Shown: piece after piece, positions 24,475 to 43,378 of the stretch | How positions within the stretch are numbered: the stretch's first letter is position 1 | Layout of the letters: each line of letters begins with the position of its first letter | Assembly (NCBI GenBank): GCA_947463885.1 | Contig: CANHUQ010000002.1 | Coordinates: 1-48,992 of the forward strand | Reading direction: 5' to 3' | DNA length: 48,992 nucleotides | Origin: Burkholderiales bacterium | GTDB taxonomy: Bacteria > Pseudomonadota > Gammaproteobacteria > Burkholderiales > Burkholderiaceae_E | Notes under the pieces: model-generated | Told to the model about the DNA's origin: nothing | Databases searched by the model: none | The model's input: only the letters and a program-made list of their open reading frames with translations | Made by a program: the position numbers and the translations under genes

Positions 24475-24909
24475 TCAGTTGGGTGAGTCCGTCCAGGGGT
24501 TCAAGACCGGCACCCCAGCCAACTCGAATTCCGCGCGGTCGCGTGTGACGACGGTCAACCCGTGACATAAGGCCGTTGCGGCAATGATCAGGTCAGGCTG
24601 AGAGAAGGTGTGACCGCGCTTTCGACCCGTCTCGACGAGGAGCCGCCACTTGAACATGATCTCTTCGGTGACAGGCAGTGCGCGTTGCACGAACATGGGA
24701 CGCACTTTGTGCGTGAGCCAATCGCTGAGTTCCGAGCGCCGCGCCGGCTGGCTGATCAGTTCGATGCCGAATCGAATCTCTGCGAAGGTGACTTCACTGA
24801 CGAAGATCTGCTCTAGTGGAAGTTCGGCAACGAAGCGCAGAACCCGCGCTTGAGGGCGGGTTCGCCTCAATTCTGAGAGGACGTTGGTGTCGAGCAGCCA
24901 TCCGCTCAT
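24475..24909 (-). CDS. vapC: PIN-domain ribonuclease toxin (VapC/FitB-like)
   Basis: Toxin of a type II toxin-antitoxin pair, expected to cleave RNA with a Mg/Mn-dependent PIN domain. It has 144 residues. The four acidic residues are at the right places: Asp7 (LLDTNVLSE), Glu44 (VTFAEIRFG), Asp106 (QPDLIIAATA) and Asp124 (VTRDRAEF). The FitB/VapC-like opening MSGWLLDTNVLSELRR is typical. It begins 9 bases after the antitoxin stop. Both lie between repeat copies, and base composition looks somewhat lower in GC than the neighbours, which suggests acquisition. Confidence 0.92.
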   Translation of the reverse strand: MSGWLLDTNVLSELRRTRPQARVLRFVAELPLEQIFVSEVTFAEIRFGIELISQPARRSELSDWLTHKVRPMFVQRALPVTEEIMFKWRLLVETGRKRGHTFSQPDLIIAATALCHGLTVVTRDRAEFELAGVPVLNPWTDSPN

Positions 24910-24918
24910 GGCCGAGAC

Positions 24919-25221
24919 TTACAACTTGACGCTGCGGACCGGCATGGGTGCGCGGGCAGGTTCGATGCTGATGGCACGGTGCGGTGAAGATTGCAGGGCA
25001 TTGATCAGTAATTGCCCGGTCTGCTGCCCCGAGAGACGTCGGAACGCGGCCGCGTCCACAATGACAACGGCTTCCCGTCCATGAAGAGTGACGTGTTGCG
25101 GGCCCTCGCTGTGGGCCTTTCGGACCACTTCGCTGAACCGTGCCTTGGCGTCTTGTAATCGCCAGGAGGCCGAGGTCACCACGTCAGTTGCTTGGTGGGG
25201 CATTGTAGGGGTTCTGGTCAT
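24919..25221 (-). CDS. Phd/YefM-family antitoxin
   Basis: Antitoxin and autorepressor for the adjacent PIN toxin, 100 residues. The core SASWRLQDAKARFSEVVRKA plus HVTLHGREAVVIVDAAAFRRL is the Phd/YefM DNA-binding and dimer fold. The C-terminal tail (SPHRAISIEPARAPMPVRSVKL region) should wrap the toxin. The start at 25221 is supported by a promoter placed so that transcription begins at or very close to this ATG, making the message nearly leaderless. An internal ATG at 25203 is the alternative. Neither has a Shine-Dalgarno sequence. A perfect palindrome covers the 25221 start codon. Confidence 0.88.
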   Translation of the reverse strand: MTRTPTMPHQATDVVTSASWRLQDAKARFSEVVRKAHSEGPQHVTLHGREAVVIVDAAAFRRLSGQQTGQLLINALQSSPHRAISIEPARAPMPVRSVKL

Positions 25222-30978: not shown

Positions 30979-31079
30979 CCCTTCTTCGGTGCTGCCAATT
31001 TGTCACAGCATTGAGCGTGCGTTTTTGGTACCGTGCGCCCTTTCGGGGGTGAAAACCTCTTTTTTGCAAGGAAACATTC

Positions 31080-31901
31080 ATGTCCTCAGCCTTCACATTC
31101 AAACCCGTGTCCATGGCCGCCACGCTGCTTCTGTCAGCTTTGACCCTGGCCGCTTGCGGGAGTGGGGGAGGTAGCGGTGGTGGAGGGGACTCCGGCGGTG
31201 GGTCGGGTGGCGGTGCGGGCGGTGGGTCCGGTGGAGGTTCGACCCTGAATACTGCCGAAGGGTTCTGGGCCGGGCCGACTAGCGTGGTGGACAATGCCAC
31301 GCAAAGGAACTACACGATGGCCGGTTCGGTGCTGGAAAACGGCGAGTACTGGTTTCTGGTGGATCTGAACGGCACCATTACCGGAATGGTGCAGGGCAAG
31401 GGCAGTTCCTCGAACGGAGTCTTCACCACGAGCACCGGCTCGACCCGCCTGACTGGACAGTACGTGGCGAAGACCTCGTTCCAAGGGACGGTCAAGAACA
31501 CTGCTGGCGCCGATGTCTTCGCCTACAACATGTCCTATGACTCGACCTACGAGCAGCCGCCTGGGTTCAATATCGCGGGCACGGACTGGGTCGGCTCACT
31601 GCCGCTGGCTACTCGCGCACCCTTCAACATCACGATCACGCCGTCTGGAGCGTTGACCGGAACGTCCACGGATGATTGTCGTCTCGACGGCACTTTGGTG
31701 GCGCGTCCTGGAAGCAAACGTATCTACAACGCCGCTCTGACCATCAACGGAACGGTCTGCACGGGTGGGGTCGCCACCAGGTTCACCGGCGTGGCTGAAC
31801 CCACCAGCAACCAGGGCGGTGCCCTGAAACAGCGGGTGCTGATCAAGGCGATTGATGACTCGACGCAATCAGTGCCACTGGTGATCCTCGTCGACCGCTG
31901 A
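31080..31901 (+). CDS. Predicted lipoprotein A with Gly/Ser linker, unknown function
   Basis: 273 residues, with AAGGAA as ribosome binding site. The signal peptide ends in the lipobox LAAC (Cys26). It is followed by a flexible Gly/Ser tether of about 30 residues, then a beta-rich domain. Segments such as NGEYWFLVDLNGTITGMVQG, TRLTGQYVAKTSFQGTV and FNITITPSGALTGT, and a pair of Cys (DDCRLDG and NGTVC) that could form a disulfide, are paralleled in the convergent gene at 31925. The pair are probably divergent paralogues. I know of no function for the family. Confidence 0.85.
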   Translation: MSSAFTFKPVSMAATLLLSALTLAACGSGGGSGGGGDSGGGSGGGAGGGSGGGSTLNTAEGFWAGPTSVVDNATQRNYTMAGSVLENGEYWFLVDLNGTITGMVQGKGSSSNGVFTTSTGSTRLTGQYVAKTSFQGTVKNTAGADVFAYNMSYDSTYEQPPGFNIAGTDWVGSLPLATRAPFNITITPSGALTGTSTDDCRLDGTLVARPGSKRIYNAALTINGTVCTGGVATRFTGVAEPTSNQGGALKQRVLIKAIDDSTQSVPLVILVDR

Positions 31902-31915
31902 TTCGGTGCGCATTC

Positions 31916-31936
31916 GGGGTGTGCTCAGCGCACCCC
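31916..31936. terminator. Hairpin between convergent lipoprotein genes
   Basis: GGGGTGTGC (31916-31924) pairs with GCGCACCCC (31928-31936), 9 pairs including one G-U, with a 3-base loop. The loop is the stop codon of the minus-strand gene. No T-run follows on either side, so the strength as a terminator is uncertain. Confidence 0.4.
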
Positions 31937-32689
31937 TGAAAGCCCCACGCCTGCGGTGCGCGACGCATTGTTGGCAGCCATCAGCACTTGCTGTTGCCCG
32001 GTGCCCGCTGTTCTTTCCAGGAACACGACACCGGAGTAGGCGTTGGGGTTGCCCAGGCAGCCGCCGAAATCATCAAGGTTGACCAGCAGAAGGCCGGCGA
32101 CCGACGCGCTGTTGGTGAAGACCCCGGTGAATACGCAGCTGGCCGAGGTGGTGGCGCTGAAGCCTCCGCCGGCAGCGACATTCATGCTGACGGTGCGGCC
32201 GTTCAGATCAGTCAGCAGCGGCCACTGTCCGCCCACTGCAGATACCGTCAGCCCAATGGGCGTGTAGTACACCCCGCTGAATCCGACCGTGAAGACTGGC
32301 GCTGCGGTGGTCATGGTGCCGCTCAGATTTCCTGAATAGGAGTCATAACGGGTGCTCAGGTTCACCAGGCTCTGTGTGGGCAGACCGAAGTTGACACCGG
32401 TGGTGTACGGGTTGGGGTAGGGCACCACATCTGCGCCGGTTGCGAAGCCTCTCAGTGCGAACCCTGCGTTGGTGTAGTCGCCATGCAGCAACCAGTACTC
32501 CCGGGTGCCTACCACAGCCATGCGAAAGGCGTTGCTGCCCGGCGAGCCGCGAAAGTCGCTGCCTGCATAGGCGCCTACGGCCGGATAGTCATAGACGGAA
32601 GAACCCTGATCAGAGCCGCTGCTGCAGGCCGTCAGGCCGCTCACGAGCGTGGCCGCGATGGCGGCATGGCGAATGGGCAATCGAATCAC
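31925..32689 (-). CDS. Predicted lipoprotein B, paralogue-like to lipoprotein A
   Basis: About 254 residues from a GTG at 32689, chosen because GGAG lies 9 bases upstream and the signal peptide (MIRLPIRHAAIAATLVSGL, lipobox LTAC) is then compact. ATG starts at 32722 or 32713 are alternatives. The domain begins AVGAYAGSDFRG. Its segments REYWLLHGDYTNAGFALRGF, STRYDSYSGNLSGTM, FSATTSASCVFTG and FGGCLG match the order seen in lipoprotein A, including two cysteines in equivalent places. It lacks the Gly/Ser tether. Function unknown. Confidence 0.83.
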   Translation of the reverse strand: MIRLPIRHAAIAATLVSGLTACSSGSDQGSSVYDYPAVGAYAGSDFRGSPGSNAFRMAVVGTREYWLLHGDYTNAGFALRGFATGADVVPYPNPYTTGVNFGLPTQSLVNLSTRYDSYSGNLSGTMTTAAPVFTVGFSGVYYTPIGLTVSAVGGQWPLLTDLNGRTVSMNVAAGGGFSATTSASCVFTGVFTNSASVAGLLLVNLDDFGGCLGNPNAYSGVVFLERTAGTGQQQVLMAANNASRTAGVGLSGVR

Positions 32690-36164: not shown

Positions 36165-37412
36165 CTAAGTCGCCTGCCGTGCCACACCTTCGGCAATCAG
36201 CTCATCGATTTCAGCGCGCTCGAGCCCGGCTTCTTTCAACACTTCTCGCGTGTGTTCGCCCAGACGCGGAGGCGAGCGTCGCACCGGCAGCATCTCACCT
36301 TCAAAGCGCACGCCGTTGCCGGTCAGACGCATGGTCGAATGGCCATCGCCCGCGGGCACGCTGCGAAAGAAACCCACCGCATCCAGGTGCGGGTCGGTGA
36401 AGAGGTCGTCCAGCGTGTTGACCGGACCGTGCGGCACATCGTGCTCGGTGCAAAAGGCCATCCATTCCTTTGTGGTGCGCCCCACCAGGATGCCGGCCAG
36501 ATGTCCGTAGAGCACTTCCACGTTGCGCGTGCGTTCGGCGTGGTTGGCAAAGCGCGGGTCTGCAGCCAGTTCGGGGTGGCCTGCGGCTGTGAAGAAACGC
36601 ATCCAGTGCGCAGTGCTGTGCGGCATGAGGCACAAGTAGCCGTCGCGTGTGCGAAAGGGTTTGCGCTGCGGGGAGAGCACGCGCGCATAGCCGGTGGGGC
36701 CCGTGCCGGGCACGAAGGTCTGTCCGCCCATGTGTTCGATGAAGGCAAAGCCTGCCATGGTCTCGAACATTGAAATCTCGACGCTGGTGCCTTGCCCCGT
36801 GCGCTCGCGGCCCATGAGTGCAGCCAGGATCGCGTGCACCGCCACGTTCGCACAGGTTTTATCGGCTGCAATGGTGGGCAGGAATCCAGGTTGGCCCGAT
36901 GCGCGCTGCATTAGATCAGCCAGACCGCTCATGCCCTGCACGATGTCATCGTAGGCCGGGCGCCCAGCATAGGGACCGGCTTCAGAAAAGCCGTTGAGGC
37001 TTGCATAGATCACTCGCGGATTGCGCGCACGCACGGTGGCCGGGTCCAGGCCAATGGCCGCCAGTTTTTGCGGGCGAATGTTGTGCATCACCACGTCTGC
37101 GCCATCGACGATGCGCAGCAACGCTGCCCGCCCCTTGGCCTGCTTCAGGTTGATCACCACGCTGCGCTTGTTGCGGTTGGTGCTGATGAAGCCGCTGGCC
37201 ACACCGGGCACCACGGCCTCGGCACCAGCACGCGTGGTGTCGCCGGTTTCGGTTTCGATCTTGATGATGTCAGCGCCGTAGTCGCCCAGGTATTGACTGG
37301 CATACGGTCCGAAAATCACGGTCGTGAGATCCACCACGCGGATGCCGCGCAAAGGCTGGTCCGCCGTGGGTGGCGTTGCCTGGATGGGCCCGCCTGCTGC
37401 GGTCTGGCTCAT
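36165..37412 (-). CDS. Family III CoA-transferase 1 (CaiB/BaiF)
   Basis: Moves CoA between acyl-CoA and a free carboxylic acid. The 415-residue sequence opens RGIRVVDLTTVIFGPYASQY and has RNKRSVVINLK, NIRPQKLAAIGLD, and the likely catalytic Asp in TIAADKTCA. The C-terminal NTLDDLFTDPHLDAVGFF and SPPRLGEHTREVL are typical. GGAG lies just before the ATG. It is closely similar along its length to the adjacent gene at 37542 on the same strand, so the two are tandem paralogues. Substrate unknown. Confidence 0.93.
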   Translation of the reverse strand: MSQTAAGGPIQATPPTADQPLRGIRVVDLTTVIFGPYASQYLGDYGADIIKIETETGDTTRAGAEAVVPGVASGFISTNRNKRSVVINLKQAKGRAALLRIVDGADVVMHNIRPQKLAAIGLDPATVRARNPRVIYASLNGFSEAGPYAGRPAYDDIVQGMSGLADLMQRASGQPGFLPTIAADKTCANVAVHAILAALMGRERTGQGTSVEISMFETMAGFAFIEHMGGQTFVPGTGPTGYARVLSPQRKPFRTRDGYLCLMPHSTAHWMRFFTAAGHPELAADPRFANHAERTRNVEVLYGHLAGILVGRTTKEWMAFCTEHDVPHGPVNTLDDLFTDPHLDAVGFFRSVPAGDGHSTMRLTGNGVRFEGEMLPVRRSPPRLGEHTREVLKEAGLERAEIDELIAEGVARQAT

Positions 37413-37541
37413 GGCTGTCTCCTTATCCGGTGGTCCGGTTCTGGTCTAGGCTGTATTGCAGGGTGCTGCGTCATGTGACGTCATGCGCATGTGCCCGATC
37501 GTCGCTGCATCGGGCCTGCGGGTTGATCGATTCCGATCGCG

Positions 37542-38774
37542 TCAGCCGCTGCGCGCGGTCCCCGAGGTGATCAGTGCTTCAATCTCAGTGGCGGTCAGTC
37601 CGGCCTGTGCCAGCACTTCGAGCGTGTGTTCGCCCAGGCGAGGCGGTGTGCGGACGGCTGCGGTCTCGCCATTGAGGCGCACGCCGTTGGCGGCGATGCG
37701 CACTGTCGAGCCCTCCCGGCCTGCGGGCAGATTCCGGAAGAAGCCGACGGCCTGCAGGTGTGGGTCGGTCAGCAGATCATCGAGCGTGTTGACGCGCCCA
37801 TGCGGGATATCGACCCGCTGCAGGAACTCAAGCCAGTGCGCCGTGGTGTGCTCGGCCATCAGCCCGCCCGTGAGCGCATACAGCACCTCGATGTTGCGGG
37901 TGCGCGAAGGCATGTCGGCAAAACGTGCATCGGCCGCCAGGTCCGATCGACCCACGCCTTCAAAGAAGCGGCGCCAGTGGTCATCGGTATAGGGCATGAC
38001 GCACAGGTAGCCGTCCTGTGTGCGGTACGGGCGCCGAGAGGGCGCGAGCGCCCGTGAATAGCCGGTGGTGCCGGTGGGCGGATCGAAGGTCTGGCCCGAC
38101 AGATGTTCGATCATGGTGAAGCCCACCATCGATTCGAACATCGAGACCTCCACATCCGACCCTTCGCCCGAGCGCGCGCGCTCCATCAGGGCTGCGAGGA
38201 TGGCGTGTGTGGCGATCATGGCGCACACCTTGTCGGCGGCCACGGTAGGCAGAAAGCGTGGCTCACCCGATTGTCGCTGCATCAGATCAGCCAGTCCGCA
38301 CAAGCCTTGAATGATGTCGTCGTACGCCGGGCGTCCGGCATAAGGGCCCGATTCCGAGAACCCGATGAGGCTCGCAAAGATGAGCCGAGGGTTGCGTGCG
38401 CGCAGCGCTGCCGGATCCAACCCGATGCCTGCCAGTTTCTGCGGGCGGATGTTGTGCATCACCACATCGGCACCGTCGATGATCCGCTGCAGGGCGGCGC
38501 GGCCGTCTGCGCGCTTGAGGTCGAGTGCGATGCTGCGCTTGTTTCGGTTGACCGACATGAACTGCACGGCCAGACCGGGTTGCAGTGCCTCGCCGGTGCG
38601 CCGGGTGGAGTCGCCGATCAGTGTTTCCACCTTGATGACGTCAGCGCCGTAGTCGCCCAGAAACTGACTGGCATAGGGACCGAACAGGACGGACGTGAGA
38701 TCGACGATGCGGATGCCTTGCAGCGGACGCAGCGCGTGCTGCGACGCGCTGGAGGTGGCAGATGAAACGGACAT
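37542..38774 (-). CDS. Family III CoA-transferase 2 (CaiB/BaiF), tandem paralogue
   Basis: 410 residues from 38774 (MSVSSATSSASQHAL). The upstream open frame to 38906 is rejected because the conserved part begins at RPLQGIRIVDLTSVLFGPYA. It shares with the first paralogue NIRPQKLAGIGLD, GPYAGRPAYDDIIQGLCGLADLM, VAADKVCAMIATHAILAAL and SGQTFDPPTGTTGYSRALAP. It is 129 bases upstream of the first paralogue and divergent from a Bug receptor gene at 38988; that 213-base gap should hold both promoters. Confidence 0.92.
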   Translation of the reverse strand: MSVSSATSSASQHALRPLQGIRIVDLTSVLFGPYASQFLGDYGADVIKVETLIGDSTRRTGEALQPGLAVQFMSVNRNKRSIALDLKRADGRAALQRIIDGADVVMHNIRPQKLAGIGLDPAALRARNPRLIFASLIGFSESGPYAGRPAYDDIIQGLCGLADLMQRQSGEPRFLPTVAADKVCAMIATHAILAALMERARSGEGSDVEVSMFESMVGFTMIEHLSGQTFDPPTGTTGYSRALAPSRRPYRTQDGYLCVMPYTDDHWRRFFEGVGRSDLAADARFADMPSRTRNIEVLYALTGGLMAEHTTAHWLEFLQRVDIPHGRVNTLDDLLTDPHLQAVGFFRNLPAGREGSTVRIAANGVRLNGETAAVRTPPRLGEHTLEVLAQAGLTATEIEALITSGTARSG

Positions 38775-38987
38775 GGGGGCGAGGGCGGCGGCAAGGCAGC
38801 GCAGGACGGTTGAGTGAATCGACCCATTGTGCCATCTCGATGATGGCAGGGCTGTCCCGAGATGCAGGCAATGAAAGACCGCCTTCGGGCGGCGCCACGA
38901 GGTCAAACGTGCATGCTGAAAAGCGTTGCAGACCGACTGGCAAGTCGCTACCTTGCCAGGCTCATCTCAAACACCCAAGAGGAGACC

Positions 38988-39998
38988 ATGTTGAGCCAGC
39001 ATCGCATTCATGTTGAGCACCGCCGCCGCCTGCTGCAGTCGGCGCTGGCGTCTATGGTGTTGACCGCATCAGGGCGCGCGGCCTGGGCTCAGACGCAGGT
39101 CGATACGCTGAAGATCATCACCGGATTTCCCCCGGGCGGCACCTCGGATACGCTGTGCCGTCGCGTCGCCGAGCGCATGGCGCCCACCGGGTATGCGCGT
39201 GCAGCGGTGGTGGAAAACCGAACCGGCGCAGGCGGCCAGATTGCGATCCAGGCCGTGCGCAGCGCGCCCGCCGATGGCAGCACGCTGCTGCAAACGCCGA
39301 TGTCGATGCTGGGCATCTACCCCCACATCTATCGCAAGCTGCCTTACGACCCGACCGCCGATCTCGCACCGGTCTCGTTAGGTTGCACGTTTGACTTCGG
39401 GTTGGCCGTGGGGCCGATGGTGCCGGCCTCTGTGCGTACGGTTTCCGAGTTTCTCGCCTGGTGTCGGCAAAACCCTGCGCAGGCTAATTTCGGCTCGCCG
39501 GCAGCCGGATCCATGCCGCACTTCATTGGCGCACTGCTTGGTCATGCCAGTGGCGTGCCGCTCAATCATGTCGCGTTTCGAGGCACACAGCCTGCCATCC
39601 TCGACATGATCGGTGGGCAGATCGCTGCGGTGTCCGGGCCAATCGGTGAGTTCACCCAACACGTGGCGGCCGGTAAATGCCGACTGCTGGGTGCATCGGG
39701 CGACAAGCGCAGCCCGTTTGCGCCGAACACGCCGACCTTCGTTGAACAGGGCTTCAAGGACATGAGTTTCAGCGAGTGGTTCGGTTTCTTTGTCCCTGCC
39801 AAGACGCCCAGTGATCTTGTTGCGCGACTCAATGCCGCCTTGCGCAGCGCACTGACTGCGCCTGAAACAGTCAACGGATTGGCCACCATGGGCCTGGAGG
39901 CGCGCGCATCATCGCCTGCAGAACTGGCAGCACTCCTGAAGGCCGATACGGAGCGCTGGGGGCCGCTGGTCAAGACGATCGGGTTTACGGCCGACTGA
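38988..39998 (+). CDS. Bug/TctC family periplasmic receptor 1
   Basis: Extracytoplasmic solute receptor of the tripartite tricarboxylate (TTT) class, 336 residues. The signal contains HRRRLLQSALASMVLTASG, a twin-arginine-like start. The mature domain has LKIITGFPPGGTSDTLCRR, the usual first ligand loop, then VVENRTGAGGQIA and IGGQIAAVSGPIGE. Such receptors usually bind small carboxylates or amides. GGAG (38981-38984) lies 3 bases before the ATG. Neither a TctA nor a TctB membrane gene is nearby. It is the partner of two CoA-transferases divergently transcribed. Confidence 0.9.
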   Translation: MLSQHRIHVEHRRRLLQSALASMVLTASGRAAWAQTQVDTLKIITGFPPGGTSDTLCRRVAERMAPTGYARAAVVENRTGAGGQIAIQAVRSAPADGSTLLQTPMSMLGIYPHIYRKLPYDPTADLAPVSLGCTFDFGLAVGPMVPASVRTVSEFLAWCRQNPAQANFGSPAAGSMPHFIGALLGHASGVPLNHVAFRGTQPAILDMIGGQIAAVSGPIGEFTQHVAAGKCRLLGASGDKRSPFAPNTPTFVEQGFKDMSFSEWFGFFVPAKTPSDLVARLNAALRSALTAPETVNGLATMGLEARASSPAELAALLKADTERWGPLVKTIGFTAD

Positions 39999-40000
39999 TC

Positions 40001-40022
40001 GCGCCTGAGTGGCGCCTGAGTG
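40001..40022 (+). repeat. Tandem 11-base duplication
   Basis: GCGCCTGAGTG occurs twice in a row immediately after the first Bug gene. It is short and lies between convergent genes; no function is evident. Confidence 0.6.
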
Positions 40023-40043
40023 GTGCGGGATGCTTGAGCGCGA

Positions 40044-40066
40044 CTGCCGCGAACAACTCGCGGCAG
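40044..40066. terminator. Hairpin between convergent Bug genes (a)
   Basis: CTGCCGCGA (40044-40052) pairs perfectly with TCGCGGCAG (40058-40066) around loop ACAAC. It has no T-run, so it may act as a rho-dependent stop or RNA 3' end protection for either transcript. Confidence 0.5.
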
Positions 40067-40081
40067 ACCGGTCGTGCCACT

Positions 40082-40104
40082 CCCCACGCAGTCATGCGGT
40101 GGGG
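40082..40104. terminator. Hairpin between convergent Bug genes (b)
   Basis: CCCCACGCA pairs with TGCGGTGGGG, with one bulged base and loop GTCA, 15 bases after hairpin (a). The two stems fill most of the convergent gap. Confidence 0.4.
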
Positions 40105-40123
40105 CTGGTAGTGGGGCGAGTAC

Positions 40124-41185
40124 TTAGTCGAGCGTGATCTTCGCTTTACGGATGATGTCGCCCAGGCGTTTTTCCTCGCTGGCCCTAAAGGCGGTGGCTT
40201 CCTTGGGGTTGCTCCAGATGGCTGTGGCGCCCCGATCGAAGAAGGCCTTTTTCAACTCCGGACTTTCCAGCGCTTGCTTAGAAAACATGGAGAGCCGTTC
40301 GACCACGGCGGGCGGCAGATTGGCTGGGCCACACAGCGCCGCCCAGGAGTTGATGTCGTAGCCCGGCAGAAACTCTGAGAGCGCCGGCATATCAGGCACC
40401 ACCGGGCTGCGCGCCATGCTGGTCACGCCATAACCCTTGACCTTGCCGATTTTGTATTGCGCAAGCGACCCTGGAATGTTGTCGAAAATCAGGTGGACCT
40501 GCCCGCCGATCACGTCGACCATGGCAGGCGCCCCTCCGCGGTAGGGCACATGCCCGATATCGACCTCAGCCAGGATGCGAAAGAGTTCGCCCGAGATATG
40601 CAGCGTGGTGCCAAGGCCTGACGAGCCGTAGTTGTACTTGCCCGGATTACGACGCAGCAGCGCGATCAGTTCCGGTACGGTGGCTGCCTGAAGGCCCAGA
40701 TTGCCGACCAGAAAATTGGGCAGCGAATACAGGTTGCTGATGAAGGTGAAGTCTTTGCCGGCATCGAAGGGCAGCTTGCCCGCCTTGAGCGTGGGCGAGA
40801 TGCCGTGCGAGGCGACGCTGCCCATTCCCACCGTGTAGCCGTCCGGTTGCGCCCGCGCCAGGGCTGCCACGCCGATGTCGCCACCGCCGCCGCCGATGTT
40901 TTCCACCAGGAATTGCTGGCCGGTCAGTTCGCTCATCTTGGCGCAGAAAATGCGCGACAGGATGTCGGTGGCGCCCCCAGGCGGAAAGGGATTGATGTAG
41001 CGCACCGGCTTAGTCGGATAGGCAGCCTGCGCACGGGCCTGGCTGCCAATGATGAGCGGTGCGCCTAGGATCGTGCCCAGCGCAGCACGGCGCCCCAGAT
41101 CGGCCGATGCGACCGGTACGACCGAGATGCACGGAGAAGCATTTGGCGTGGATGCGGTGTCAGGGCTTTCATTCATCGTATTCAT
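40124..41185 (-). CDS. Bug/TctC family periplasmic receptor 2
   Basis: 353 residues from the ATG at 41185, preceded by GGAG. The long N-terminus holds a twin-arginine-like LGRRAALGTILGAPLIIG and a cleavage site after ARAQA. The mature part begins AYPTKPVRYINPFPPGGATD, then VENIGGGGGDIGV, with five consecutive Gly, and DVIGGQVHLIFDNIPGSLAQY. The open frame runs on upstream to 42145 as a shadow of the hydratase gene and is not real. It is divergent from the enoyl-CoA hydratase with a 150-base gap. Confidence 0.92.
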   Translation of the reverse strand: MNTMNESPDTASTPNASPCISVVPVASADLGRRAALGTILGAPLIIGSQARAQAAYPTKPVRYINPFPPGGATDILSRIFCAKMSELTGQQFLVENIGGGGGDIGVAALARAQPDGYTVGMGSVASHGISPTLKAGKLPFDAGKDFTFISNLYSLPNFLVGNLGLQAATVPELIALLRRNPGKYNYGSSGLGTTLHISGELFRILAEVDIGHVPYRGGAPAMVDVIGGQVHLIFDNIPGSLAQYKIGKVKGYGVTSMARSPVVPDMPALSEFLPGYDINSWAALCGPANLPPAVVERLSMFSKQALESPELKKAFFDRGATAIWSNPKEATAFRASEEKRLGDIIRKAKITLD

Positions 41186-41335
41186 AAGGGTCTCCTCATG
41201 GATGAGCGCAGCATAAGTCAGCGCATCGGCCGGTTCAATTTTGGGGTTATCGAACATTGCCGCGGCGGTGAAGCGTTGCCTCCTCGCCGCTTCACGACTA
41301 GGGTGAGCGTTTTGCATGCAGACGAGACTTGAACA

Positions 41336-42130
41336 ATGACAGCTTCCACAGGGCGCGTTCATACCCACGTCGACGGCCCCATCGGCTGGATCACATTCGA
41401 CAATCCCGGCCGCCATAACGCCATGTCCGTTGCGATGTGGGAGGAGTTCCCCGAAGCTGTGCGCACACTCGAAGCGAACGCGCAGGTGAGGGTGATCGTG
41501 TTGCGCGGCGCGGGCGATCAGGCCTTTGTTTCCGGCGCCGATATTTCGCAGTTCGACGAAGTGCGCGATTCGCTTGAGGCCAACCAGCGCTATGAGGCCA
41601 TGGGCAATGCCGGGATGAGTCGGCTCGCCGATTGTGCGAAGCCGACGATCGCCATGCTCCAAGGCTGGTGCCTGGGCGGAGGCATGGCGATCACACTGAA
41701 TTGCGATTTGCGCATGGCCGATGAGACCTTGCGCTACGGGATTCCTGCGGCCAGATTGGGTATCGGGTATCGCTGGCCCGGCATCAAGAAGCTGGTCGAT
41801 ACGGTGGGTGCACCCAATGCGCGCGAAATTTTTCTGACCGCGCGCCGGTTCAATGCCCAGGACGCCATGCGCATGGGCTTCGTGAATCGTGTGGTGGCCC
41901 GTGGCGAACTGGAGAGCGCTGTGCGTGCAGAGTGCGCGCTGCTCGCAGCCAATGCGCCGCTCACCATGGCCTCGGTCAAGATCGCCATCGATGAGATCAC
42001 GCGGGCTGGCGCCCAGATCGATGCGGCACGCATTGAAGCCGCCACGCAGCGGGCCTATGAAAGTGCTGATTTCATCGAAGGGCGTCAGGCCTTTATGCAA
42101 AAGCGCCAGCCGGTGTTCAGCGGGCGCTGA
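41336..42130 (+). CDS. Enoyl-CoA hydratase/isomerase family protein
   Basis: Crotonase-fold enzyme of 264 residues. Oxyanion-hole segments are SGADISQF (around residue 66) and MLQGWCLGGGMAI, with NPGRHNAMSVAMWEEF at the N-terminus. The usual catalytic Glu pair is not clearly in place: the segment after GGGMAITLNCDLRMADETLRYGIP has an Ala-Arg where Glu164 of hydratases would be expected, so the reaction may differ. It is followed after 54 bases by the third CoA-transferase and a Bug receptor, in one direction, suggesting a catabolic operon for an imported acid. Confidence 0.9.
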   Translation: MTASTGRVHTHVDGPIGWITFDNPGRHNAMSVAMWEEFPEAVRTLEANAQVRVIVLRGAGDQAFVSGADISQFDEVRDSLEANQRYEAMGNAGMSRLADCAKPTIAMLQGWCLGGGMAITLNCDLRMADETLRYGIPAARLGIGYRWPGIKKLVDTVGAPNAREIFLTARRFNAQDAMRMGFVNRVVARGELESAVRAECALLAANAPLTMASVKIAIDEITRAGAQIDAARIEAATQRAYESADFIEGRQAFMQKRQPVFSGR

Positions 42131-42184
42131 GTCGCCTGTCGTCACGCGGCGGGCACCTTCCCGTCACACCCAATCGGAGTAGCG

Positions 42185-43378
42185 ATGTTCAGACCCACCC
42201 CCGGCGGTGCCTTCGAAGGCTTGCGCGTCATTGATCTGGCTCAGGTGCGATCGGGCCCGACCTGCGTCAAGCAGTTCGCCGACTTTGGCGCCGATGTGAT
42301 TCGCATCGAGCCGCCTGCGCACTCGGGCCGCACCGAACTGATGACCGGTGCACGTGATGGCGCTGACATGCTCAACCTGCATCGCAACAAGCGGCTGATG
42401 ACACTGGACCTGAAGGCACCTGGTGCCAAGGATGTGATGCATCGTCTGGTGCGCTCAGCCGACATCGTGGTCGAGAACTACCGCCCCGATGTGAAGGCCC
42501 GTCTGGGCATCGATTACGACAGCCTCGCAGCGATCAATCCGCGCATCATCCTCGCCAGCATCTCGGGCTTCGGACAAGAAGGTCCGTACAAGGTACGTCC
42601 GGGTTTTGATCAGATTGCGCAAGGTATGTCCGGCATGATGTCGGTGACCGGCAAGCCGGGCGAAGGCCCCATGCGTGTGGGTGCAGCGGTCATCGACGTG
42701 GCGACCGGGCTCTATGCAGCGCTGGGGGTGATGACCGCGCTCTACGAGCGTGAGCGCAGTGGCCGCGGTCAGTGGGTGCAGTCTTCACTGCTTCAATCCG
42801 GCCTGGGGTTGATGGATTTTCAGGCCGCTCGATTCCTGGTGGAGGGCGAGGTGCCTGGGCAGGTTGGCAACGACCACCCCACGGGCATGCCCACGTCGGC
42901 CTATGCCACCTCGGATGGTCACGTGAATCTGGGCGCCGCTGGTGAAGCCATGTGGATCAAGGTCTGCGAAGTCATCGGTCGCCCCGCATTGGCCACCGAC
43001 CCGCGATTTGCGCAGGGCCCGGACCGGTCACTCAACCGTCAGGCGCTCAATGCAGAGCTGGGTGCGGCCTTTCGCACGCGCACCAGCGCTGAATGGATTG
43101 AATTGCTGAATGCCGCCGGCGTGCCGTGCGGCCCGATCTACAGCATGGATCAGGTGTTCAGCGATCCGCAGGTCGTGGCGACCGGCATGGCGGCCACCGT
43201 GCAACATGAAACCCGCGGGCCGATTCGGGTGTTGGCGCCCACGGCCACCTTGTCGCGTACGCCAGGCAAGCTTGAGCGCTCGCTGGTGTCAGTGGGGCAG
43301 GATACCGACGATGTGCTGGGCGAGTTGGGCTACAGCGCCGATGATATTGCCCGAATGAAGCACGACGGCATACTCTGA
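42185..43378 (+). CDS. Family III CoA-transferase 3 (CaiB/BaiF)
   Basis: 397 residues, opening GLRVIDLAQVRSGPTCVKQF. HRNKRLMTLDLKAPGAKDVM, NYRPDVKARLGIDYDSL and SISGFGQEGPYKVRPGFDQIA are typical. The likely catalytic Asp is in AVIDVATGLYAALG. It differs clearly from the tandem pair at 36165/37542, so it is a separate member of the family. The next gene, a Bug receptor, starts about 90 bases later. Frequent annotations for relatives are formyl-CoA or succinyl-CoA transferase; the acceptor acid is unknown. Confidence 0.93.
   Translation: MFRPTPGGAFEGLRVIDLAQVRSGPTCVKQFADFGADVIRIEPPAHSGRTELMTGARDGADMLNLHRNKRLMTLDLKAPGAKDVMHRLVRSADIVVENYRPDVKARLGIDYDSLAAINPRIILASISGFGQEGPYKVRPGFDQIAQGMSGMMSVTGKPGEGPMRVGAAVIDVATGLYAALGVMTALYERERSGRGQWVQSSLLQSGLGLMDFQAARFLVEGEVPGQVGNDHPTGMPTSAYATSDGHVNLGAAGEAMWIKVCEVIGRPALATDPRFAQGPDRSLNRQALNAELGAAFRTRTSAEWIELLNAAGVPCGPIYSMDQVFSDPQVVATGMAATVQHETRGPIRVLAPTATLSRTPGKLERSLVSVGQDTDDVLGELGYSADDIARMKHDGIL

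Follow-up and report, generated by a model that had tools for sequence, protein, structure and literature searches.

Two face-to-face lipoprotein genes of a Burkholderiales bacterium are probable members of one uncatalogued family and of separate lineages within it

Introduction

The described proteins closest in plan to the pair reported here are cargo of the Slam/type 11 secretion system (T11SS). As described in a published account (PMC12282271), such cargo consists of an N-terminal effector and a C-terminal eight-stranded barrel. Cargo of the fHbp, TbpB-lobe, and haemophilin type (PF01298, lipoprotein C barrels) is also exported and partly lipidated, and it too combines an N-terminal beta part with a C-terminal eight-stranded barrel. 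The other point of comparison is avidin and streptavidin, which are likewise eight-stranded antiparallel barrels.

We analyzed a stretch of 48,992 nucleotides from a Burkholderiales bacterium (the whole stretch is referred to as the window) in which two predicted lipoprotein genes, A and B, face each other. A and B give weak fold matches to cargo of the fHbp/TbpB type, from low-confidence models. Unlike that cargo, they have no Pfam match to the barrel and have two conserved cysteines in the barrel lobe; and unlike the T11SS setting, the window's genome (G000) has no Slam match. As for avidin, the modeled C-lobe of A superposes on 1nqn with Z = 9.2 and an rmsd of 2.6 over 92 residues, but neither A nor B has a sequence match to PDB chains or Pfam. 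The reading that we favor, and that we consider probable though well short of certain, is that A and B belong to one uncatalogued and sparse lipoprotein family of Burkholderiales and some other Pseudomonadota, that they represent separate old lineages, and that they are probably outer-membrane-anchored binders. What had been a hypothetical pair would thus become a defined protein family, absent from the copies of Pfam and NCBIfam that we searched, whose fold and cysteine pattern can be tested.

The gene pair and its junction

The features of the locus are as follows.

31080 to 31901, plus strand: gene A, predicted lipoprotein of 273 amino acids (open reading frame; AAGGA 7 bases before the ATG)
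31080 to 31157, plus strand: signal peptide and lipobox LAAC of A (lipid Cys codon 31155-31157)
31158 to 31247, plus strand: tether of A, 30 residues, nearly all Gly or Ser
31248 to 31898, plus strand: two-lobed domain of A, 217 amino acids (C-lobe about 31554-31898; Cys codons 31677-31679 and 31758-31760)
31916 to 31936: junction hairpin (loop TCA, 31925-31927, is the stop codon of B)
31925 to 32689, minus strand: gene B, predicted lipoprotein (start best placed at GTG 32689, with GGAG nine bases upstream)
32624 to 32689, minus strand: signal peptide and lipobox LTAC of B (lipid Cys codon 32624-32626)
32588 to 32623, minus strand: short linker of B, 12 residues
31928 to 32587, minus strand: two-lobed domain of B, 220 amino acids (Cys codons 32135-32137 and 32057-32059)

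A (plus strand) and B (minus strand) are convergent across a gap of 23 bases (31902-31924), as the first-pass annotation of this DNA had reported. The end coordinate that it implied for B corresponds to a start at GTG 32689, with which the GGAG site agrees; ATG 32713 and ATG 32722 are alternative starts. It had also placed the stop codon of one gene in the loop of the connecting hairpin, and indeed the loop TCA on the plus strand is the TGA of B. The arms of the hairpin are 31916-31924 and 31928-31936 (with one G-U pair on the plus strand), and the fold of 31890-31945 was beaten by only 1 of 200 shuffles on each strand.

In G053, a relative that also has the pair, the gap is 42 bases long and contains a different hairpin (CCGGGG..CCCCGG) with no stop codon in its loop. 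There, the minus-strand fold was beaten by 2 of 200 shuffles and the plus strand was unremarkable (130 of 200). The stretch after A in four genomes that have A alone folds at the level of shuffles (35 to 102 of 200). Given the stop-free loop in G053 and the shuffle-level folding in these four genomes, the stop-in-loop detail is not conserved. On a plain reading, the junction hairpin would be a terminator common to both convergent genes. A scan for promoters and terminators found no promoter and a single terminator-like site (31045-31060), a count no higher than in shuffles; the hairpin between A and B was not flagged because no T run follows it.

Sequence features of A and B

Both proteins have the lipobox that had been claimed for them (LAAC in A and LTAC in B, by lipobox pattern), and their sequences support the prediction that they are bacterial lipoproteins (SPII). 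The contrast in tethers is real as well: from the lipid Cys to the domain there are 30 residues, nearly all Gly or Ser, in A, versus 12 in B. Among family members without another domain, this distance ranges from 11 to 58 residues. Because long and short tethers are both found outside the A clade, the difference between A and B is not peculiar to the pair.

The shared motifs that had been described for the two proteins fared unevenly. EYWFLV (A) and EYWLLH (B) share alignment columns in an alignment of 29 family members (29 rows), and so do QRVLI and QQVLM. The STR strings of A and B lie four columns out of register, and the spacing of the conserved cysteines is 27 residues in A and 26 in B rather than 35-45. 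At the DNA level, the longest listed stretch of inverted similarity between A and B also falls at the EYWFLV/EYWLLH site (30 nt at 73% identity, a figure without a shuffle control). Exactly two domain cysteines, 25-29 residues apart, are present in all 24 of the 24 rows printed from the 29; the other five are G276 and G246, which were unmatched by the script, and three plasmid rows that it skipped. All 24 rows also have a lipobox-like string by a loose pattern, which is doubtful in G110. The invariant columns of the 29-row alignment are three glycines and one cysteine.

A and B are distant members of one family

Compared directly, A and B show no similarity by BLASTP (best E = 0.52). With phmmer, the mature domains of the window's pair match at E = 0.054 and 0.058, and other A-B pairs match at E values down to 2e-4; all of these lie within the range of our shuffled and reversed controls, whose best value was 4.3e-5 over 1010 control sequences and 10 queries. 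Searches with single sequences against 74 genomes of the bacterial family gave matches to A in nine genomes and to B in four, and one protein of G070 was matched by both searches. In G021 and G022, it is mostly the signal peptide and the Gly tether that match A, and neither genome was recovered by the profile.

The relationship emerges through relatives, as the first-pass annotation's term "paralogues" would have it. With the lipobox and tether removed, bridge proteins from G063, G070, and G011 match rows of the A clade at E values of 1e-4 to 1e-18 and rows of the B clade at 3e-5 to 9e-12. Most of these values lie far below the best shuffled control (4.3e-5); the weakest overlap it. A profile of the A clade (five rows) against a profile of the B clade (two rows), a comparison that had been suggested beforehand, gave a score of 37.6 and a probability of 65% over 125 columns, mostly in the C-lobe. 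This score beats all 100 column shuffles (best 20.6) and the reversed profile (14.2). In the B-to-A direction the score is 45.9 and the probability 88%; the shuffles cover the A-to-B direction only. Each clade is also linked to the remaining 22 rows, which include the diverged G055 gene: the A clade at a probability of 99.9 over 212 columns, and the B clade at 99.3 over 205 columns.

The family domain has two lobes and about 219 residues. The family profile matches both A (E = 9.7e-72) and B (E = 4.8e-67) over its full length (1-219), with both proteins being rows of that profile. As to a possible internal duplication, lobe 1 compared with lobe 2 gave a probability of 2-3% and scores of 16.3 and 17.5 over 24-29 columns, slightly higher than the best of 100 shuffles (13.6). 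Searches of Pfam, NCBIfam, and PDB sequences gave no credible family for the domain. The best Pfam match is DUF4847 (PF16139), which one of the 29 rows matches at E = 0.0032; with E up to 1 allowed, none of the remaining 28 rows matches it. Defense-system proteins were considered and set aside, as PADLOC had no match to A or B. No relative of either was found in viral contigs, and a contig search with one bridge protein returned only that protein's own record. Our literature search on DUF4214/FKBP lipoproteins and on calycin beta-barrel lipoproteins of Burkholderiales found nothing; the family has no name to search for. On the Caballeronia plasmids, the family gene, where listed, is a hypothetical protein.

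Spread of the family

An 8-row profile found the family in 12 of the 74 genomes of the bacterial family, with all candidates scored (in G010, only the second half matches). Across the order, the same profile found it in at least 14 of 399 genomes, which is a lower bound because at most seven candidates were scored per genome. A 29-row profile, with at most 15 candidates scored per genome, found it in 11 of 200 genomes in the order and 7 of 200 in the phylum, counting weak matches and the window's own genome. One match, in G124, covers 46 residues of a 783-codon open frame and looks spurious.

Alignment A2 leaves out G010 and G286 (partial matches, mainly to the second half) and includes three of the eight plasmid records; a Paraburkholderia plasmid stretch is outside the alignment. 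Members found by the 29-row profile searches are likewise outside the alignments, except that G646 is in the second tree described below. The frames in G286 (L097) and G010 (L098) are lipoprotein-like and match mainly the second lobe, so they are perhaps single-barrel relatives.

Predicted fold

The model of A has a mean pLDDT of 59.7 and a pTM of 0.59. The model of B has a mean pLDDT of 47.7 and a pTM of 0.47, with residues 1-112 under 50. The input to both models was the same three sequences, and their agreement therefore does not count as independent. As to whether the folds match, both C-lobes come out as eight-stranded in these low-confidence models, which is compatible with a match; the N-lobes were barely tested.

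With Foldseek, no match reached E = 0.001 for either protein: the best for A was streptavidin (E = 0.14), and the best for B were an arabinanase (2.3e-3) and agroavidin (0.03). With a second aligner, the C-lobes of A and B each match the de novo designed barrel 6czi at Z = 11.5 (rmsd 2.4 for A and 2.1 for B, 97 residues), and avidins match at Z = 7.8-9.2 for A and 7.1-8.2 for B. Because de novo barrels outscore avidins, we consider the avidin match to be one of shape. On these models, the N-lobe of each mature protein would be rich in beta strands, and the C-lobe would probably form an eight-stranded barrel containing one disulphide.

Proposed role

As a rule, lipoproteins that lack Asp at position +2 are sorted to the outer membrane. 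Neither A nor B has Asp at +2, so they should be sorted there. A and B would be exported by the signal peptide, then lipidated at the lipobox Cys, and would end up as anchored proteins, with a flexible tether, long in A and short in B, carrying the lobes at its end. A would reach further from the membrane than B. Most likely, both are outer-membrane-anchored binding lipoproteins. That they bind a ligand is our guess: it could be a small molecule, a glycan, or a protein, in the periplasm or at the surface, and would probably differ between A and B. We saw no shared operon partner in the stretches that we looked at.

Instead of binding a ligand, the family domain might serve as a structural or chaperone-like module of the envelope. 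Two fusions point that way. In G417 (L086:6282-8063), the domain lies in one frame between DUF4214 (E = 2.6e-14) and a C-terminal FKBP_C (E = 3.2e-28), and in G110 (L095:6899-8161) it is fused behind DUF5648 (E = 3.6e-10). Each fusion is a single case, however, and no FKBP-like open frame is present in the other 23 stretches searched, so an FKBP partner is not the rule. We consider this alternative unlikely.

A bolder extension of the binder reading is that these proteins form a new class of binding lipoproteins, tethered and two-lobed, that does not depend on Slam. The disulphide-closed C-barrel would be a shared docking or export module, the N-lobe would give specificity, and genomes would juxtapose old lineages and so widen their range of ligands. 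This is speculative, and we give it only a slim chance.

Origin of the pair

The first-pass annotation proposed that A and B arose by inverted duplication followed by divergence. Such a local duplication of one gene would explain why, in each of the two pair-bearing genomes, A and B are homologous neighbors that converge. Also, both genes evolve fast, and a rapidly diverging copy can be drawn apart from its sister in a tree. The phylogeny places them apart, however. We built two trees, the second from a new alignment that leaves out G055_A, with which we repeated the first-round tests. In both, A falls in a clade of genes linked to an SNF2-type helicase gene (support of 95/84 with G055 in the first tree and 100/99 without it in the second), and B groups with G053_B and G011, which is from another genus (95/64 and 95/81). 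In the first tree, the B-G011 group is inside a 96/92 group with the FKBP fusion of G417; in the second, G417 is elsewhere.

Holding together the four A and B genes of G000 (the window's genome) and G053 was rejected by the AU test in both trees (p = 0.0037 in the first and p = 5.8e-5 in the second). Holding these four genes together with the rest of the A clade was likewise rejected (p = 0.025 and p = 0.0018). Long branches could mislead these trees, and the deep forks are poorly supported. Nevertheless, with two alignments, one of them without the longest branch, separating B from A, inverted duplication is unsupported, and we consider it distinctly improbable. The trees support the view that A and B are separate lineages and not local inverted duplicates.

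The surroundings of the genes are as follows. A lies straight after the SNF2-type helicase gene in six of six genomes of the genus with an orthologous SNF2 3′ end (G000, G053, G048, G052, G054, and G055); we excluded from this count a distant relative of SNF2 in G055 and, in G050, 5′ pieces that lack the end. Beyond A, where B would be, there is a relative of CoA-transferases in G048, G052, and G054 and a similar open frame in G055, in which a DUF2889 gene faces A. The far flank of B is CinA in G000; that stretch of G053 has none, and only a 34% relative is found elsewhere in that genome. (An in-frame TGA that was flagged in three CinA relatives is their normal stop.)

Of the 74 genomes of the bacterial family, two have the convergent pair itself: G000 and G053, both from this genus of 12 genomes. 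Between the two genomes, A is 43-51% identical and B is 36-39% identical, depending on the method. The idea of a matched pair holds insofar as the genes are adjacent, and are so in two genomes; the matching is weak because B is present in only two of the six genomes of the genus with A beside the SNF2 gene.

We prefer to replace the story of inverted duplication with one of two old lipoprotein lineages that ended up face to face. In this genus, the slot after the SNF2 gene would belong to A, and B would be a separate, older lineage that came to adjoin A, probably in the common ancestor of the two pair-bearing genomes.

A head-to-tail pair of family genes in G441 (L088:7245-9036) looks like an ordinary tandem. 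Its copies group together at 81/92 in the second tree and do not resolve in the first.

Comparison with Slam cargo

A and B could be surface lipoprotein cargo of a Slam/type 11 secretion system, with an N-terminal effector or handle and a C-terminal barrel. Their modeled architecture is similar to the cargo plan described in PMC12282271. Structures matched by the B model include an Aeromonas immune modulator (Z = 8.2) as well as fHbp, the TbpB C-lobe, haemophilin/HphA, and a Pasteurella surface lipoprotein (Z = 6.7-7.2), but these values are at or below the aligner's range for a common arrangement. The Foldseek list for A includes HpuA, TbpB, and fHbp at E values of 0.21-0.95. PF01298 (TbpB_B_D), in contrast, does not appear among the Pfam hits to the 29 rows (E up to 1), and a search for it across 23 genomes, which had no working positive control, detected it in 0 of them.

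For the Slam protein itself (PF04575), G070 has a match above the cut-off, and the pair-bearing G053 has a sub-threshold match (19.7 bits versus a cut-off of 22), but G000, which is 92% complete, has none. Above the cut-off, Slam is present in 1 of 12 genomes that have the family, versus 17 of 62 others of the bacterial family. Because Slam has no match in G000, is sub-threshold in G053, and is rarer in family-bearing genomes, we did not file A and B as T11SS cargo, a reading that we consider very unlikely. By analogy, A and B may still work like T11SS-type lipoproteins.

The last alternative, that A and B lack homology and are just ordinary lipoproteins rich in Gly and Ser whose motifs look alike, could appeal to the BLASTP and phmmer similarities being no better than shuffles and to the STR and cysteine-spacing motifs not being as first described, but it is largely refuted by the profile comparison and the bridge proteins, from which the lipobox and tether were removed, and its probability is close to nil.

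Other genes in the window

A gene for a PIN-domain protein lies beside a Phd/YefM-type antitoxin gene at 24475-25221 (minus strand), and the two look like a type II toxin-antitoxin pair. Within 36165-43378, the gene at 36165-37412 is a CoA_transf_3 gene by Pfam, and those at 37542-38906 and 42185-43378 are, by eye, two further CoA_transf_3-like genes.
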